A DNA stretch of 22,456 nucleotides from a virus: positions 1-22,456 of the IMG/VR virus record IMGVR_UViG_3300042312_000342. One strand, 5' to 3'. A model generated the notes under the pieces. It worked only from the letters and a program-made list of their open reading frames with translations. It did no database searches and was not told the DNA's origin. The position numbers and the translations under genes were made by a program. Below are positions 1-21,632 of this stretch, one piece after another (positions within the stretch are counted from its first letter, which is position 1; each line of letters begins with the position of its first letter).

Positions 1-149
1 CTATCTAAAGTAAATCCTGCTTGATGTATACTCTCAAGAGTTAAATCCATTAATTGTTCATGACTTACTGCTTTATAGCTTCTTGTAGAAGAAGGTATAA
101 CTGCATTTACTAAAATATTTTTAGTAATATTATAATTTTGTGTTTGCAT
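1..149 (-). CDS. N-terminal part of a possible DUF932-like phage protein (runs off the window)
   Basis: Only the first 49 codons are visible; the gene continues past the left edge. The start is the ATG at 147-149, five bases after the stop of the endonuclease gene. The visible protein has a short polar lead (NYNITKNIL), then IPSSTRSYKAVSHEQ and a helix LMDLTLESIHQAGFTL. A short lead, a T/S-rich SY(K/M) segment, 'VSH' and then a helix resemble the N terminus of phage/plasmid DUF932 proteins, but that rests on memory of the pattern and too little is visible to be sure. The same pattern occurs in the truncated fragment at 981-1058, so the two are probably related. Function unknown. Confidence 0.55.
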   Translation of the reverse strand, partial: MQTQNYNITKNILVNAVIPSSTRSYKAVSHEQLMDLTLESIHQAGFTLD

Positions 150-4016: not shown

Positions 4017-4841
4017 TTATATATCTTTATAAATACTTTCCCAATAAGTTTCTATTTCTCCTTTTTTATTCTTTTTAGAGATAATAATTTTTCCTTTTAA
4101 TTTAGGACTTCTACTACCTGCTATAATACTGTCATTTTGAACATCAAAATTTAAGTGTCTTTCTTCTCCATCTGCTACAAGTTTACATAATGCTGTCACT
4201 TTAGAAGCAAATATGCTTTTTAGCTTACCTGTTAAAGAAATCTCAGATCCTACAACTTCTTCTTTACCATTATCCTTAATGTATTTATCAGCTACGTGAG
4301 CTGCATATATTCTATAAGGAGATATTTGTCTAAAAAATTCTATTTGTTGCAAAAACCACCCTCTTGTATGCATATATCCTGCACCTTCAGGAAGTGTAAG
4401 AACAGATTTCCATTCTGGATCAGTAGGTAGATATGGATCTAAAGAAGGATCTCCATTAGGTCTATTAAACTTTTTACCAATAATACTCTTTTGATAGGCT
4501 ATTGTTCCACCAATTTCAGATAAATCATCTAAATCAGACAATCCATCTATTATTAAATAATCATACTTTCCAGCATTAGTTAGTAATAATTTTCTGTATT
4601 TAATAAAATTTTGAAAACTTTCCCATCTTGTAGTTTCTTGTCCTGTATAAGTAGACATTTTTCTAGCAGCAATATATTCATATCCTCCTTTTTCTAAATC
4701 TAATACAAGAGCATTATATTTAGTTGTAAAATCTCCTAATATAGTTCCTTTACCTATTTTAGGTTGGCCTATAATAACAAGATCTCTTGGATCATTGTTA
4801 CTCACTTCACTTATTTCATCTGGTAGTTTTAGTTCCTCCAT
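4017..4841 (-). CDS. RecA-fold ATPase, Sak4-like recombinase (AAA_24 type)
   Basis: A 274-residue NTPase. Walker A is GQPKIGKGT (residues 25-33) and Walker B is YLIIDG (95-100), preceded by a LDLEKGGYEY segment characteristic of phage AAA_24/Sak4 proteins. Sak4-type proteins are short RecA paralogues that promote single-strand annealing with the phage SSB in recombination and replication restart. The probable SSB gene is two genes downstream, as often seen. The residue after the P-loop lysine is Gly-Thr, so ATP binding looks intact. The later part is beta-rich (about 175-274), with no RecA C-terminal domain. The start is preceded 10 bases upstream by the TTAAC element at 4852-4865. Confidence 0.82.
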   Translation of the reverse strand: MEELKLPDEISEVSNNDPRDLVIIGQPKIGKGTILGDFTTKYNALVLDLEKGGYEYIAARKMSTYTGQETTRWESFQNFIKYRKLLLTNAGKYDYLIIDGLSDLDDLSEIGGTIAYQKSIIGKKFNRPNGDPSLDPYLPTDPEWKSVLTLPEGAGYMHTRGWFLQQIEFFRQISPYRIYAAHVADKYIKDNGKEEVVGSEISLTGKLKSIFASKVTALCKLVADGEERHLNFDVQNDSIIAGSRSPKLKGKIIISKKNKKGEIETYWESIYKDI

Positions 4842-8828: not shown

Positions 8829-9113
8829 TCATTCTTTTATTCTTAATCCAAATTCTAGATTAAACCAATCAAAAGTACGAAGAGCTCTTAATTTATTACA
8901 TTTAAAAACTTTTTTTATTAAAGCTAAAGCATAAGCTTTAAACTCTTCATGTTGTTTTTGTGTCATTGTGATGTTAAAATACCACATATCATCATCAAGG
9001 GTGTCCATTATTGTTTTTCCTACCATTTTTAATTGATATTCAACAAGATGTCTACTGATGTTTTCTCGATTAATTTTACTTGGCTTTTCCCCAAGATTCT
9101 CCGATGTTTGCAT
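8829..9113 (-). CDS. Conserved phage hypothetical protein, 94 aa
   Basis: A small protein with HLVEYQLKMVGKTIMDTLDD (residues 22-41), DMWYFNITMTQKQHEEFKAYAL and a final helix NLEFGLRIKE. I recognise the pattern 'LVEYQL..(I/V)GKT...DTL(D)DD.W(Y/F)FN' followed by 'QHEEFK.YA' as a family found beside DNA polymerase genes in Bacteroidota phages; no function is known to me. Its start lies 38 bases inside the end of the polymerase gene, so it is translated in coupling with it. A role near the polymerase is inferred from position only. Confidence 0.8.
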   Translation of the reverse strand: MQTSENLGEKPSKINRENISRHLVEYQLKMVGKTIMDTLDDDMWYFNITMTQKQHEEFKAYALALIKKVFKCNKLRALRTFDWFNLEFGLRIKE

Positions 9114-11094
9114 CTGCTTTAATTTTTAAATTAGTTAAATAATAATTTCCTGCTTTAATCATACATTCTTGTACTTTTAATCTAACTAATTCTGCCATAT
9201 TTTTAGGACACTCAACAATTATTTCATCATGTACTGTATTACAAATTTTAACTATCCATTGATAATTATTTTGTATAATCCAGTTATATAAATAAAGTGC
9301 AGCTGTCTTTAATTGGTGCGAAGCACAAGTTTGAACAGGACTGTTAAGACATAGTCTTTGATATTCTGATTTAAGTTTGGAATATTGAGATACTTCTGTT
9401 TTTTTAGATTTATAATATTTTACAGCTTCAGGAAATATATAATTATATTCTTTTCCTTTTTCTTGCTCATCAAATTTCTTTTTATAATCTAATTTACCTT
9501 GCTTATATATTTGCCATTGTTCTTTAGTTATTTGATTCACTTTGTTTTTATACTCTTTAAACTTGTCAAATTTTGGTAAAAATAGTTTCCAACCATCAAC
9601 AGATTCTATATATCCTTGTTTAATGGCTTTATCAAATTCTTTTTGTCCCCAAGTATATAATCCTTCATGAAGTTCTTTAAAAGCATTTTCTATTTTATTT
9701 GCTTCTGATAAAGGAATACCATCTTTTTCATGTATTGTATATGCACTACCACCATATTGAAAAGCAAATCTAGGTGCTTTAGCAGCTTGTCTTTTATCTT
9801 TATGAAGTTTAATAATTGTTTCATCATCCATATCTTTAATTTCTGGAAATAACACTCTAGCAAAAGCACAATGTAAATCATCTCCATTGATTACAGAAGC
9901 TGTCATAGCAGCATCTCCTGATAAATCAGCAGCAATAACAGTTTCTTGACCACTCCAGTCACATACAATCATTTTATTACCTTTATTAGCTACAAAACAA
10001 TCTCTTGTTGTTGAATCTGAAGGAAAGTTTAAAAAATTAATATTTCCTTTTCTTGTAGAAAGTCTTGCAGTATCCACCATAGGATTAAAATTAGTGTATA
10101 TACGTTCTTTTTCTATTTTTTGATAAATTTTTTCACCAAAAGTTGTCACTCTATGATTTGCTTCTTGAAAATTAAGCCACATATCAACAAACACATGTTT
10201 TGATTTTCTAATAACATCTTCATTAATACTATCCTTACCATTTTTATCTTTAGTTTTAATACCAAAAGCATTAAATACTTTTATCATTTGTATAGGAGAA
10301 GTTATGCTAATCAATATTCTTTTTTTTGTGTCAAACATATCAATTTGATTATCCGCAAATTGTGGAAGTTCATCAAAAATATATTCTTCAATTGTTTTTT
10401 TCCATTTTAAAGAATTTATAACATCTTCTTCCATTTTGGCTTTCCATTTTTTAGAACTAATAGGCATACCACATTGTTCCATATAAGCTAATGCTTTAAT
10501 ATATTCACAATGTAATAAATATGTAGGTTCAAATCCTCCTTTTTTAATTTTATCATATAATACATCATGTAATTCACCAAGCTTATCAACATCATTAAAA
10601 GAATATTCTATTGTACTTTTTTGACTTAATTTAACTATATGAATATTTTTTTGTTCTGTTTTATCATAAACAATCTCTAACTCTCTTTTCATTACAGAAC
10701 CAAAATCATGTCTATATGGAAGAAAATCTTCATCTATAGCCCCATTATATATAATTTTACTAGCTAACATTGTATCTCTCACTTTTTCAGGATAAAAACC
10801 ATATTTATAACAAAACCCTAAATCAAATAAAGCATTGTGAAATATTAATGTTTTATATTGTAAATAAGGAATTATATCAGAAAACTGATAATTATCATTG
10901 TATAAAACAATAATATAATTATTATTTCCTGTTCCTATTTGACAACAAAACATTTCATGATGTCTAGCTTCAAGACCTGCTGTTTCACTATCAAAAGCTA
11001 TTGTTTCAGGAAGAATCATATCTTCAATATTACAATAATTGTATTCTCCAATTTTTTCAAAAGGTGTTCTATCTTTACAAACTATATAATCCAT
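9076..11094 (-). CDS. Family A DNA polymerase with 3'-5' exonuclease domain
   Basis: The phage replicative polymerase, 672 residues. The proofreading domain has Exo I FDSET (D35, E37), Exo II FHNALFDLGF (N87, D91) and a probable Exo III aspartate near 168-178 (NDVDKLGELHDV). The polymerase domain has motif A CDWSGQE (D379), motif B DKRQAAKAPRFAFQYGG (433-449) and motif C VHDE (621-624). There is no N-terminal 5' nuclease, as in T7 and crAss-like enzymes. A lysine/tyrosine-rich insert of roughly 70 residues (about 510-580) separates motifs B and C. It stands at the head of the replication block, with the DnaB-like helicase further downstream. Confidence 0.96.
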   Translation of the reverse strand: MDYIVCKDRTPFEKIGEYNYCNIEDMILPETIAFDSETAGLEARHHEMFCCQIGTGNNNYIIVLYNDNYQFSDIIPYLQYKTLIFHNALFDLGFCYKYGFYPEKVRDTMLASKIIYNGAIDEDFLPYRHDFGSVMKRELEIVYDKTEQKNIHIVKLSQKSTIEYSFNDVDKLGELHDVLYDKIKKGGFEPTYLLHCEYIKALAYMEQCGMPISSKKWKAKMEEDVINSLKWKKTIEEYIFDELPQFADNQIDMFDTKKRILISITSPIQMIKVFNAFGIKTKDKNGKDSINEDVIRKSKHVFVDMWLNFQEANHRVTTFGEKIYQKIEKERIYTNFNPMVDTARLSTRKGNINFLNFPSDSTTRDCFVANKGNKMIVCDWSGQETVIAADLSGDAAMTASVINGDDLHCAFARVLFPEIKDMDDETIIKLHKDKRQAAKAPRFAFQYGGSAYTIHEKDGIPLSEANKIENAFKELHEGLYTWGQKEFDKAIKQGYIESVDGWKLFLPKFDKFKEYKNKVNQITKEQWQIYKQGKLDYKKKFDEQEKGKEYNYIFPEAVKYYKSKKTEVSQYSKLKSEYQRLCLNSPVQTCASHQLKTAALYLYNWIIQNNYQWIVKICNTVHDEIIVECPKNMAELVRLKVQECMIKAGNYYLTNLKIKADANIGESWGKAK

Positions 11095-14963: not shown

Positions 14964-14996
14964 AAAATCCCTACACATTTTGTATATGTGTAGGGA
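14961..14996 (-). terminator. Intrinsic terminator after the VWA gene
   Basis: A perfect 11-bp stem (TCCCTACACAT / ATGTGTAGGGA) with a 7-base loop, followed on the minus strand by six T residues (14962-14967). It lies about 20 bases after the stop of the VWA gene and closes the MoxR-VWA unit. Confidence 0.92.
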
Positions 14997-15017: not shown

Positions 15018-16412
15018 TTATTTAATTTTTTGTTTTCCTGCTTCTGCAGAATAAGAAAATACTTCATCATTATATGTAACCTCAATTTGTTTACCCTCTG
15101 TAGCTAAACATAAATCTTTTAATTGATCACTAAATTCTAATAATGATATAGCATTCACTTTGTATGGAAATTCTTCTGAACCCACACTGTCTTGACCATC
15201 ATTTGTAATTAATATTTCAGGCTTTTCTTCTGATAAATCTACATCTAAATTATGTAATCTACCACAATTCACTTCATTAGCAACATATTCTACTATACCA
15301 CCAATATCAGTTCCTCCACCATTAGGAGAATTAGAAAATGTTTGCCAAAATTTAATTACATCTTCTCTATCTTTAATGTGTTGAAAATTAAGATCGCTAG
15401 TTCTTTCAACAAAATAGCTAACAAACACTTCAGCTTCTCCTTTCATGACATATTTAAATCTATCAATAAGAATAGCATTCACCCATATTTGTTTTTCAAC
15501 TTCATTCATGCTTCCTGAAAAGTCTATAAGCATAATAATCTTTTGAATTTGTTCTTTTCTATCTACAGGAACATTAACTGTTAAATCTTTAGTTAAGAAC
15601 TTACTTCTAAAATTTGGATAAACTTTCTGCATTAGATTCATCATATGAATTTGAGAGTAATCTCTCATTATCATAGTGGAATACTCATCAGAGTTAGCTA
15701 CAATCTTTTCACTAATTTCTTTTTCCACTTTAAATTCAGAACCAAACTTACCAACAAGAGATAGACAATTCATAATCTCCATTTTTCTGTCTTTACTAAG
15801 CTCGTTTAATTCTAATTGTTCATTGATGTTAGGATCAGAATACAACTGTCTATCAAAGTCAAGTCTTTTAGTAAGATCTATCTCTTCATCTTCATCTCTC
15901 TCTTCTCTTTCTTCTCTACTTGATTGACCTTTTAGTTTCAAATAAATAGATATAGCTTGCTCTAATGGAGAGAATCCAGGAATGAATTGCTCGAATATAC
16001 TATCGTACAAAGCTTTCTTCTGTTGGTATTCACCTTGTTCAGATTCTGATAGCTTATCATAGTCTGCATATTTCTCAGCAACATATTCTCTTTCATCAAT
16101 CATCTTGAAATAGCATATACGTGCTAGTTCTTTGATTGTATCAATAGATGTTTGCTTAGGTGCATGCACTTTCTTTTTGATCTCTGCAGCTGTTGGTGTT
16201 AGATAGTTAACTGGATTTTTAACAAACAGATCATCATTGTTATCAACACTACCATAGTCCCAAGAGTAAGAGAATGATGACCAGTTTGATTTAGACCATC
16301 CACTGCCACCATATTTACTCTTCCATCCTCCTGTACTCTTTTTAGGAGCATAGGTTGGGGCATAATAACTATCGTAATAGTCATCATACCCATCATCCCA
16401 TAACTTTCCCAT
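15018..16412 (-). CDS. VWA-domain protein partner of the MoxR ATPase
   Basis: A 464-residue protein with a C-terminal von Willebrand A domain. The metal-binding MIDAS motif is intact: DFSGS (D297, S299, S301), threonine T368 in GGGTDI, and D405 in ITNDGQD. VWA proteins paired with MoxR ATPases act as adaptor/substrate partners in complex assembly or disassembly (RavA-ViaA and CoxD-CoxE types). Residues 1-60 are low complexity, rich in Y, G, S, W and D (DDYYDSYYAPTYAP; YGGSGWSKSNWSSFSYSW), and probably disordered. Residues 80-290 are mostly helical, with a highly charged EEREERDEDEEID stretch. The gene starts three bases after the MoxR stop and is followed by a strong terminator. Domain call firm; role inferred. 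Confidence 0.92.
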   Translation of the reverse strand: MGKLWDDGYDDYYDSYYAPTYAPKKSTGGWKSKYGGSGWSKSNWSSFSYSWDYGSVDNNDDLFVKNPVNYLTPTAAEIKKKVHAPKQTSIDTIKELARICYFKMIDEREYVAEKYADYDKLSESEQGEYQQKKALYDSIFEQFIPGFSPLEQAISIYLKLKGQSSREEREERDEDEEIDLTKRLDFDRQLYSDPNINEQLELNELSKDRKMEIMNCLSLVGKFGSEFKVEKEISEKIVANSDEYSTMIMRDYSQIHMMNLMQKVYPNFRSKFLTKDLTVNVPVDRKEQIQKIIMLIDFSGSMNEVEKQIWVNAILIDRFKYVMKGEAEVFVSYFVERTSDLNFQHIKDREDVIKFWQTFSNSPNGGGTDIGGIVEYVANEVNCGRLHNLDVDLSEEKPEILITNDGQDSVGSEEFPYKVNAISLLEFSDQLKDLCLATEGKQIEVTYNDEVFSYSAEAGKQKIK

Positions 16413-16415
16413 CTC

Positions 16416-17717
16416 TTAGATAAATGAAGCGATAGTTAAATTCTTCTCAAACTTCTCAAGAGCAGATGTAGCTGCTTTAACAAGTTGTGAGTGTACATGT
16501 ACAACATCATCACCCACTACTAATCCTTTGATATCAGACAATTGCTTCTTAAGGTCTGAAATAGCACCTTTATGTAACTTTTCATCTTCTTTAGATACCA
16601 ATGGTAGAGTTGTTAGAGTTTCAATGCTAAATGTAATAGCTGCAGACAGTTCTCTAAATTTAATAGTAGATTCAAACTTTTTAATAGCTTCAGCTATTAA
16701 AGAAGGTTTTTTAGCAAACTCTGCAATGAATGTTAATGATTCAGGACCACACTCATCATACACTTGATAAGCTGTTACAGCTACACGTGGACTGATTATG
16801 ATGCTGTTTTTAGCATATTCTTGTAATAAATAAGGAATTACAGGATCTACATTATCTACACCAAACTTACTCTCAAGTAGTTTGTTATAGCTAATTTCTG
16901 TATAATTATCCCATATTACATTTAATTCAAGAGGAAATCTTTCCATAAGTGCTTTTAAAGACATATTCTTAGAGAATTCATCTCTAGTACGATTGGTACA
17001 ACAAATAATAAACTTTGTTTCAATAGGAAATATTTGTGAACCATTTCTAAAAATACCACTAGATAGAATATCCTTCAACTGCTCTAGAATGAAATCAGGA
17101 GCATCAAACAACTCTTCGAATATAACATATTCATGGTTCATAAAACTATTCTCTACAAGATATTCAATCTTACCTGTTGTTTCAAATGTTGGTATATCAA
17201 GACCACCAAACAATCTGTCTGTTGTCATACCTGTACCCATAGTTTGAACAAATGGGTTAATACCTTTTGATTTAAGAAAATCAAGGGTTATTTCTGATTT
17301 TCCATGTCCCCCAGGACCATGTAAAATAACATTTTTACGAGTTTTAAACCCTACATTTAAAATGTTAACTGTTTTGTCCATAAATACAAATTTCTCTGTT
17401 GTTTGAACTACTGCTTTCTTTGTTTTTGTTGCCATTGTTTTCTGTGTTATTAAGGAATTATTTAATTGTTTTAATTTTTCTAATGTTTCTTCAATGTTTG
17501 TTTCTTCAATTTCTATTATATCTCTAGGAAAGAATTTCCATCCTTCATATATAAACCCTTCTTTAATTTTTGAATAATATTCATCAGGAATTTCTTCTCC
17601 TAAAAAACAATTCATTTCTTCGTCTGAATTCCACTGCAAAGGAAACTCACATCCATATTTTTCTCTCCAATTTCCTTCTTTTTGAAACTCTTCTTTAGTT
17701 TTAAAACGATATCTCAT
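16416..17717 (-). CDS. MoxR-type AAA+ ATPase with a fused N-terminal phage domain and an internal start
   Basis: A 433-residue protein. The MoxR part has Walker A GPGGHGKS (134-141), Walker B VIFEE (198-202), sensor-1 CCTNR (239-243) and a candidate arginine finger in MERF (R260). MoxR ATPases remodel protein complexes together with a VWA partner, encoded here by the next gene. Residues 1-70 (RYRFKTKEEFQKEGNWREKY, then WNSDEEMNCFLGEEI) are a separate small domain resembling stand-alone phage proteins with an (F)KTKEEF...W...W...(M)..(F/L)G pattern. In frame at residue 95 an ATG (17435, MATKTKKAVVQTT) is preceded 11 bases upstream by a CCTTAATAAC element, so a 339-residue MoxR form may also be made. 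The assignment is strong; the dual start is inferred. Confidence 0.92.
   Translation of the reverse strand: MRYRFKTKEEFQKEGNWREKYGCEFPLQWNSDEEMNCFLGEEIPDEYYSKIKEGFIYEGWKFFPRDIIEIEETNIEETLEKLKQLNNSLITQKTMATKTKKAVVQTTEKFVFMDKTVNILNVGFKTRKNVILHGPGGHGKSEITLDFLKSKGINPFVQTMGTGMTTDRLFGGLDIPTFETTGKIEYLVENSFMNHEYVIFEELFDAPDFILEQLKDILSSGIFRNGSQIFPIETKFIICCTNRTRDEFSKNMSLKALMERFPLELNVIWDNYTEISYNKLLESKFGVDNVDPVIPYLLQEYAKNSIIISPRVAVTAYQVYDECGPESLTFIAEFAKKPSLIAEAIKKFESTIKFRELSAAITFSIETLTTLPLVSKEDEKLHKGAISDLKKQLSDIKGLVVGDDVVHVHSQLVKAATSALEKFEKNLTIASFI
17447..17460 (-). promoter_or_regulatory. CCTTAATAAC-type element inside the MoxR gene, before an in-frame ATG
   Basis: In the sense direction it reads TAATTCCTTAATAA, ending 11 bases before the ATG at 17435 (methionine 95). 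It lies within coding sequence, where such a match at start-codon spacing is not expected by chance, so it supports internal initiation. Confidence 0.45.
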
Positions 17718-17730
17718 AAAAATGTGTTTT

Positions 17731-17769
17731 AAATAAAAACACGCATATTTATAAAAAACATGCGTGTTT
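17731..17769 (-). terminator. Intrinsic terminator upstream of the MoxR gene
   Basis: A 10-bp stem AAACACGCAT / ATGCGTGTTT (17737-17746 and 17760-17769) with a 13-base loop, followed on the minus strand by T-rich TTTTTATTT. It lies 11 bases after the stop of the 114-residue gene, so the MoxR-VWA pair begins a new unit or is reached only by read-through. Confidence 0.85.
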
Positions 17770-19916: not shown

Positions 19917-20399
19917 TTAATCTTCATTATCATTGTTCTCTTCTTTATTAGCAAAACCATCAAGAAAATCTTTAATTTCTTTTGGTAATTTACTACCATC
20001 AATTGGTTCACCATTACTTTCTTTAGCAAGTTGTATAAGAAAGTCTTTTATATTATCAGGTACATCATCTTCAGAAATAGAAACTTTCTGAACACCTTCA
20101 AGAATATCTAGTAAACCTTTCATTTTTTCTTCCATTTGTTTTTCAAAATCATCTAATTTATCTCTTAAATAGAAAGAAGCTAATATAACCAATTGGTTAT
20201 AACTAAAATTATGTAAACATTCTTCTACTAACATACTAGGAGAAAAATCTTCTCTTATTTGTTTTGTTTCTGTAAACATACTGTTTTTTATAATTTCTAG
20301 AACATTGTTTTTTAGGTCAGTAAGATAATTTTCTTCTACACCAATTGCTTTGTTAAGCTTTTTTTGACCGTGGTCAAAAGTAAAAATACTTGTACTCAT
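19917..20399 (-). CDS. Hypothetical acidic-tailed protein, 160 aa
   Basis: Not recognised. The start MSTSIFTFDHGQKKLNKAIG is followed by helices with LVEECLHNFSYNQLVILASF and DDFEKQMEEKMKGLLDILEG. A charged C-terminal third has DDVPDNIKDFLIQLAKES and ends in the acidic FANKEENNDNED. The segment DNIKDFLIQLAKES repeats loosely as KEIKDFLDGFANKE, so two related short helices occur in tandem. The ATG is preceded by the CCTTAATAAC element at 20410-20423. It heads the string of genes that ends at the MoxR terminator. Confidence 0.7.
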   Translation of the reverse strand: MSTSIFTFDHGQKKLNKAIGVEENYLTDLKNNVLEIIKNSMFTETKQIREDFSPSMLVEECLHNFSYNQLVILASFYLRDKLDDFEKQMEEKMKGLLDILEGVQKVSISEDDVPDNIKDFLIQLAKESNGEPIDGSKLPKEIKDFLDGFANKEENNDNED

Positions 20400-21536: not shown

Positions 21537-21632
21537 TAGTCAGGACAGGATTCGAACCTGTATCTTTTTCCATATCCCCAATAATCTTTTGGGAGGTAAA
21601 ACGTGATAACCAATATTTTACACCACCTAACT
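21537..21632 (-). tRNA. Atypical tRNA-like gene, anticodon not resolved
   Basis: Read on the minus strand, a complete 7-bp acceptor stem (AGTTAGG with CCTGACT, discriminator A, one T-G pair) encloses a perfect T arm (ACAGG-TTCGAAT-CCTGT) and a class-II-like D arm (GTG / CAC with the conserved GG). The centre is odd: total length is 96 bases. The only strong 5+7+5 arm is CCCAA-AAGATTA-TTGGG, with no U at position 33, and nine unpaired bases (GTTTTACCT) precede it. CCA is not encoded. It may be a phage tRNA with an insertion, a decayed tRNA, or a tRNA mimic. The tRNA-like ends are clear; the isotype is not. Confidence 0.6.

Follow-up and report, generated by a model that had tools for sequence, protein, structure and literature searches.

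A MoxR–VWA gene pair and its small companion gene in the early region of crAss-like phages

The MoxR–VWA locus and its products

The window, that is, the whole stretch of 22,456 bases analyzed here, is a virus fragment of a crAss-like phage of ~110 to 118 kb (the genome size of its relatives is 110 to 118 kb) and not host DNA. On its minus strand, two complete open reading frames lie 3 bases apart: one encodes a MoxR-type AAA+ ATPase of 433 amino acids (positions 16416 to 17717; ORF and Pfam, bpMoxR/AAA_5), and the other encodes a VWA protein of 464 amino acids with an intact MIDAS (15018 to 16412; ORF and motifs). The initial annotation had described exactly this arrangement, and its coordinates, open frames, and motifs were all confirmed.

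The window itself spans the early region only, and crAss-like membership is assigned through TerL, the portal, and the head protein of a relative, G002. The terminase, portal, and head protein of G002 match PHROGs families, and its terminase is similar to those of Cellulophaga phi4:1 and gut crAss phages. G002 also encodes a giant protein of 4186 amino acids with a DFDID motif, which we take to be a mark of the crAss RNA polymerase. The nearest isolate by terminase is Leptolyngbya phage Lbo-JY46, in which neither MoxR nor VWA was detected above noise. The virus record, the related contigs, and the phage proteins of G002 together rule out contaminating host DNA as the source of the pair, which is thus phage borne rather than a stray host operon. 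The pair shares its strand with the polymerase, helicase, and primase genes, while the virion genes of G002 lie on the opposite strand. The DNA polymerase belongs to family A in the window (9076 to 11094) and in G039, and a phrog_1252 polymerase occupies the same place in G002 (96470 to 98437), G038, and G042; the polymerase type is independent of the pair and its companion gene described below. An Rfam match missed by ARAGORN marks a tRNA of ~96 nt at 21537 to 21632 (minus strand), possibly with an insertion.

MoxR scores 55.6 bits against Pfam bpMoxR (PF20030; cutoff, 27) and also matches AAA_5. Its motifs are GPGGHGKS at residue 134 (Walker A; minus-strand codons at 17295 to 17318), IFEE (Walker B) at 199, TNR at 241, RFP at 260, and SPR at 309. 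Walker A, Walker B, sensor 1, the arginine finger, and sensor 2 are conserved in 48 sequences, with GGHGKSE of the P-loop, FEE, TN, RFP, and SPR invariant; Walker B reads E-E, not D-E, in all 48 phage sequences. Judged by these motifs, the protein appears to have everything expected of an active MoxR AAA+ ATPase. Its AlphaFold model (pLDDT, 80) has NorQ, CbbQ, and RavA as nearest folds. An N-terminal module of ~85 residues (1 to 85 in the window's MoxR) is clade specific and missing from more distant relatives. The same module also starts other phage proteins or stands as a separate ORF (G002, 80522 to 80740; L029, 5998 to 6288).

The VWA protein consists of a disordered N terminus rich in W, Y, and G, a helical middle domain, and the VWA domain, which carries DFSGSM at residue 297 (minus-strand codons at 15507 to 15524), T368, and NDG at 404. 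The MIDAS residues D297, S299, S301, T368, and D405 are invariant in 48 sequences. HExxH is absent from the same 48 sequences, and no Pfam peptidase domain was found. Directly before the VWA domain lies a conserved strand-helix-strand segment (residues ~228 to 290). In NorD, the finger comprises residues 403 to 448, just ahead of the VWA core, and by analogy the phage segment could be a pore “finger.” The AlphaFold model (pLDDT, 77) has Rea1/MDN1-MIDAS and NorD among its best fold matches; among the matches listed by VIA-align, there were only generic VWA domains.

Terminator-like hairpins found by a hairpin scan flank the pair on the minus strand, one upstream of MoxR (17737 to 17769) and one ~20 nt past the VWA stop codon (14968 to 14996), and the 5.5-kb region holds 7 terminator-like sites against 1.5 expected. 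In 18 relatives, a hairpin stands at similar spacing, 14 to 15 nt ahead of the ATG, and a downstream hairpin is found in 19 of 51 loci. The pair had been described as isolated between two terminators. Hairpins are indeed present on both sides, but only ~19 nt lie between the upstream hairpin and the start codon of MoxR, which leaves no space for a promoter, and isolation does not follow. The upstream hairpin may instead be an attenuator, be read through, or control read-through.

Conservation of the pair and inserts in its motif codons

Both genes occur in 37 of 37 related contigs tested and are adjacent in every locus that covers both; this pairing is far beyond chance. No relative carries a single gene and, as the invariant catalytic and MIDAS residues indicate, none of the 48 sequences has a degraded motif. 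The dN/dS ratios of the pair range from 0.17 to 0.52, pointing to purifying selection. Between the window and G002, identity is 77% for MoxR and 84% for VWA, compared with 82 to 86% for DnaB, the helicase, and the primase; most small neighboring genes are more divergent than the pair. In the very close genomes G002 and G003, dS is 0.16 for MoxR versus 0.72 for VWA, which suggests that the VWA gene was exchanged alone.

In some relatives, both genes are interrupted within their motif regions. Two relatives have a group I intron that carries a GIY-YIG endonuclease and divides the MoxR P-loop codons (GPG/GHGKS); in two, the VWA gene is split at the aspartate-glycine of the MIDAS by an insert bearing LAGLIDADG. 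These introns and inserts of the P-loop codons and MIDAS region lie at L025, 5041 to 5998; L026, 5041 to 5998; and L010, 8570 to 9534 (Rfam E values of 3e-7 and 0.004).

Beyond the crAss-like relatives, in which the pair is intact and its neighborhood could be compared, tblastn with MoxR and VWA against 50,697 GenBank phage records gave no convincing relative.

Distribution of the cassette and of DUF932

A third gene, upstream of the pair, accompanies it. Located at 19917 to 20399 (minus strand), this gene encodes a fast-evolving protein of 160 amino acids, p160, with an FDHGQKKL...AIGV motif and an acidic tail; its dN/dS is 0.3 to 0.58, and it matched no named family. It occurs in 21 of 29 records that carry the pair and in none of 16 that lack it, 2 or 3 of which do not cover the region. 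These 16 large contigs were picked by terminase or primase similarity and not by MoxR, and neither MoxR nor VWA is found in any of them. Among 193 families, families 98 and 115 gave the top hhalign raw scores against p160, at a probability of only ~5%; a conserved third gene in all distant loci is doubtful. In another clade, small genes of families 75 and 74 (L041, 5083 to 5874 and 4713 to 5081) stand directly before MoxR and are perhaps a counterpart of p160.

We compared 19 genomes gene by gene. Among 117 variable families (18 genomes), only MoxR and VWA match the pattern of the cassette exactly; p160 follows it by tblastn. In G039 and G042, the cassette is missing and the flanking genes are retained. 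In a phylogeny built from 20 core proteins, G038, which lacks the cassette, groups with pair-bearing G010, and the likewise cassette-free G039, G042, G051, and G048 group with pair-bearing G013 and G017; at least 3 gain or loss switches are needed on this tree, and 3 to 4 on early-gene trees. p160, MoxR, and VWA are therefore gained or lost as one unit among otherwise syntenic relatives, and they form a three-gene accessory cassette in the early/replication half of this crAss-like group, kept intact by purifying selection. Phage-encoded tmRNA genes follow the VWA gene within a few kilobases in 8 of 10 pair-bearing genomes (G003, G006, G008, G010, G013, G016, G017, and G019; e.g., L025, 8543 to 8929, and L016, 8970 to 9292) versus 2 of 9 genomes without the pair, namely, G038, where the tmRNA sits in the empty cassette site (63106 to 63428), and G039. 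The tmRNA tags are long, such as ANMNKVFSLLGEEVAVAA or GGTEVKSNDIVEFELAA.

This distribution bears on whether the pair is a virion-assembly chaperone for the remodeling or maturation of a head, tail, or fiber protein, a role proposed both for p618-p892 of Acidianus two-tailed virus (ATV) and for the MoxR-vWA pair that group 2.2 jumbo phages encode. The virions of crAss-like phages are large, and pair-bearing phages could differ in fast-changing tail proteins. However, close relatives without the cassette (TerL up to 94% identical) share virion proteins, and their portal, major head protein, and terminase belong to the same families; no virion family tracks the cassette in the 19-genome scan; the virion genes lie on the other strand; and no metallopeptidase motif is present. 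Since close relatives produce the conserved virion proteins in the absence of the cassette and no virion family tracks it, this role is weakened, and we consider it unlikely; the comparative data speak for an accessory, early role rather than for assembly of conserved virion proteins.

Among the 117 variable families, one alone, DUF932 (PF06067), is the exact complement of the cassette pattern. It is absent from 14 near-complete genomes with the pair and present in 13 of 13 genomes that lack the pair and have a complete DnaB gene (Fisher P = 5e-8 for 14 versus 13 genomes, phylogeny ignored); this coupling is based on a small number of switches and on metagenomic contigs that are unfinished. 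Two contigs with neither pair nor DUF932, G048 and G053, were set aside because the DnaB region is missing, and G050 ends within DnaB. A further 29 contigs with DUF932 have no MoxR, while the distant pair-bearing phages G024 and G028 carry remote DUF932 relatives.

Strict mutual exclusion is nevertheless refuted by the window's own phage. The first 49 codons of a DUF932 gene lie at the edge of the window (1 to 149, minus strand), where contig L451 overlaps it with 99.8% identity over 4637 bases and holds the intact gene (257 amino acids; 4018 to 4791), so this phage carries both modules. The two are thus alternatives rather than incompatible: the presence of one does not render the other pointless or damaging, and what links them is a strong tendency short of exclusion. 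The window may represent a transitional state. Exchange of the two loci together as one block is not favored, because the genes between them also need 3 to 4 switches.

In genomes without the pair, DUF932 lies directly or closely behind the primase gene. Together with the position of the cassette inside the same-strand replication block, this would fit a replication or recombination accessory for remodeling the replisome of the phage or replication proteins of the host, with DUF932 doing a similar job. Yet DnaB, the primase, and both types of DNA polymerase are found whether or not the cassette is present, and no DNA-binding feature was seen, which makes such an accessory rather improbable. 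In the Escherichia coli element CP4-6, the DUF932 gene yafZ is near a RadC-like gene, a toxin-antitoxin pair, and yafX, which presumably has an anti-restriction role; this neighborhood would fit the counter-defense role proposed below. The titles and abstracts that we found report neither a tested function nor an anti-defense role for DUF932 and its relatives.

Proposed role and comparison with known systems

The intact motifs and invariant pairing lend good support to the original reading of the locus as a phage-encoded MoxR–VWA remodeling machine. The best explanation of our data, which we put forward tentatively, is an early, accessory remodeler of a host complex for which DUF932 may be a substitute. 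By analogy with NorQ-NorD, MoxR would form an ATPase ring whose pore is plugged by VWA via the segment ahead of the first VWA strand; the MIDAS would hold the target, and ATP hydrolysis would twist or pull it apart. p160, the fastest-evolving member, would likely be an adaptor, a regulator, or a substrate. The proposed target is a host complex that stands in the way of early infection, so that the machine would serve counter-defense or host takeover. In related phages, DUF932, a protein unrelated to the cassette, probably fills a comparable need, which would explain why most genomes retain just one module. A possibility of which we are less confident is that one and the same host obstacle is overcome in two unrelated ways, by the cassette or by DUF932, which would be swapped between close crAss-like phages. 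If they are equivalents, the function of one would reveal that of both, including the widespread DUF932 of plasmids and phages. Few AAA+ systems are as poorly understood as MoxR–VWA machines; a compact version from phages, natural sister genomes with and without it, and a possible DUF932 substitute provide a clean comparative handle on the role of the machine in infection and on the common DUF932 family.

The bpMoxR name stems from proposed bacterial MoxR-vWA ternary conflict systems (PMC7159879), with which the phage locus shares a MoxR above the PF20030 cutoff and a third gene beside the pair. An anti-phage weapon derived from such systems and used for superinfection exclusion would account for this likeness. 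However, none of their beta-propeller, VMAP, iSTAND, FtsH, or effector domains was found here: Pfam detects no beta-propeller on the VWA protein, whose model has a helical N-terminal half, and no PADLOC defense model matches the cassette. With just two proteins and p160 present, we regard such a weapon as quite improbable.

NorQ-NorD, CbbQ-CbbO, RavA-ViaA, and Rea1/Midasin offer the nearest folds and probably similar mechanics (PMC13036017, PMC9976466), but their substrates are cellular, sequence similarity is low, and the phage Walker B departs from their D-E. The analogy initially drawn with RavA-ViaA and CoxD-CoxE therefore holds for mechanism and fails for membership: MoxR reaches 27.3 bits against the NCBIfam RavA equivalog (cutoff, 681), and VWA reaches 17.3 bits against Pfam VWA_CoxE (cutoff, 26.4). 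With NorQ and CbbQ as nearest folds, the pair might insert a metal or cofactor into a phage or host metalloenzyme, like NorQ-NorD or chelatases. We find this very improbable, as no metalloenzyme gene was noticed beside the pair in the loci read and a “porphyrin biosynthesis” PHROG match is weak (E value, 0.0045). The nearest cellular pairs found are adjacent MoxR and VWA genes on Planctomycetes chromosomes (L089 to L091). Homology with their VWA protein runs through the pre-VWA segment, but its motif is DRSKSM rather than DFSGSM, and, unlike the phage MoxR, theirs has two AAA modules in one protein of ~700 amino acids.

Among viruses, group 2.2 jumbo phages likewise encode a MoxR AAA+-vWA chaperone-cochaperone pair (PMC7824862). 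Their vWA protein has an N-terminal metallopeptidase, whereas the present one has neither HExxH nor a peptidase domain, and the phages here are crAss-like, of ~115 kb, rather than jumbo. As cited in PMC4124505 (Scheele et al., 2011), p618 of ATV, a viral MoxR whose VWA partner is p892, is a virion component assigned to tail growth. The MoxR of SMV1 (ORF588), which also has a VWA partner, resembles the present MoxR at an E value of 0.03 and 25% identity only. As the jumbo-phage and ATV pairs are published, the kind is already known. We found no report of MoxR-VWA in crAss-like phages in the literature searched; what is new is this crAss-like setting, together with the behavior of p160 as part of the unit, the anticorrelation with DUF932, and the presence of introns in the P-loop and MIDAS regions.
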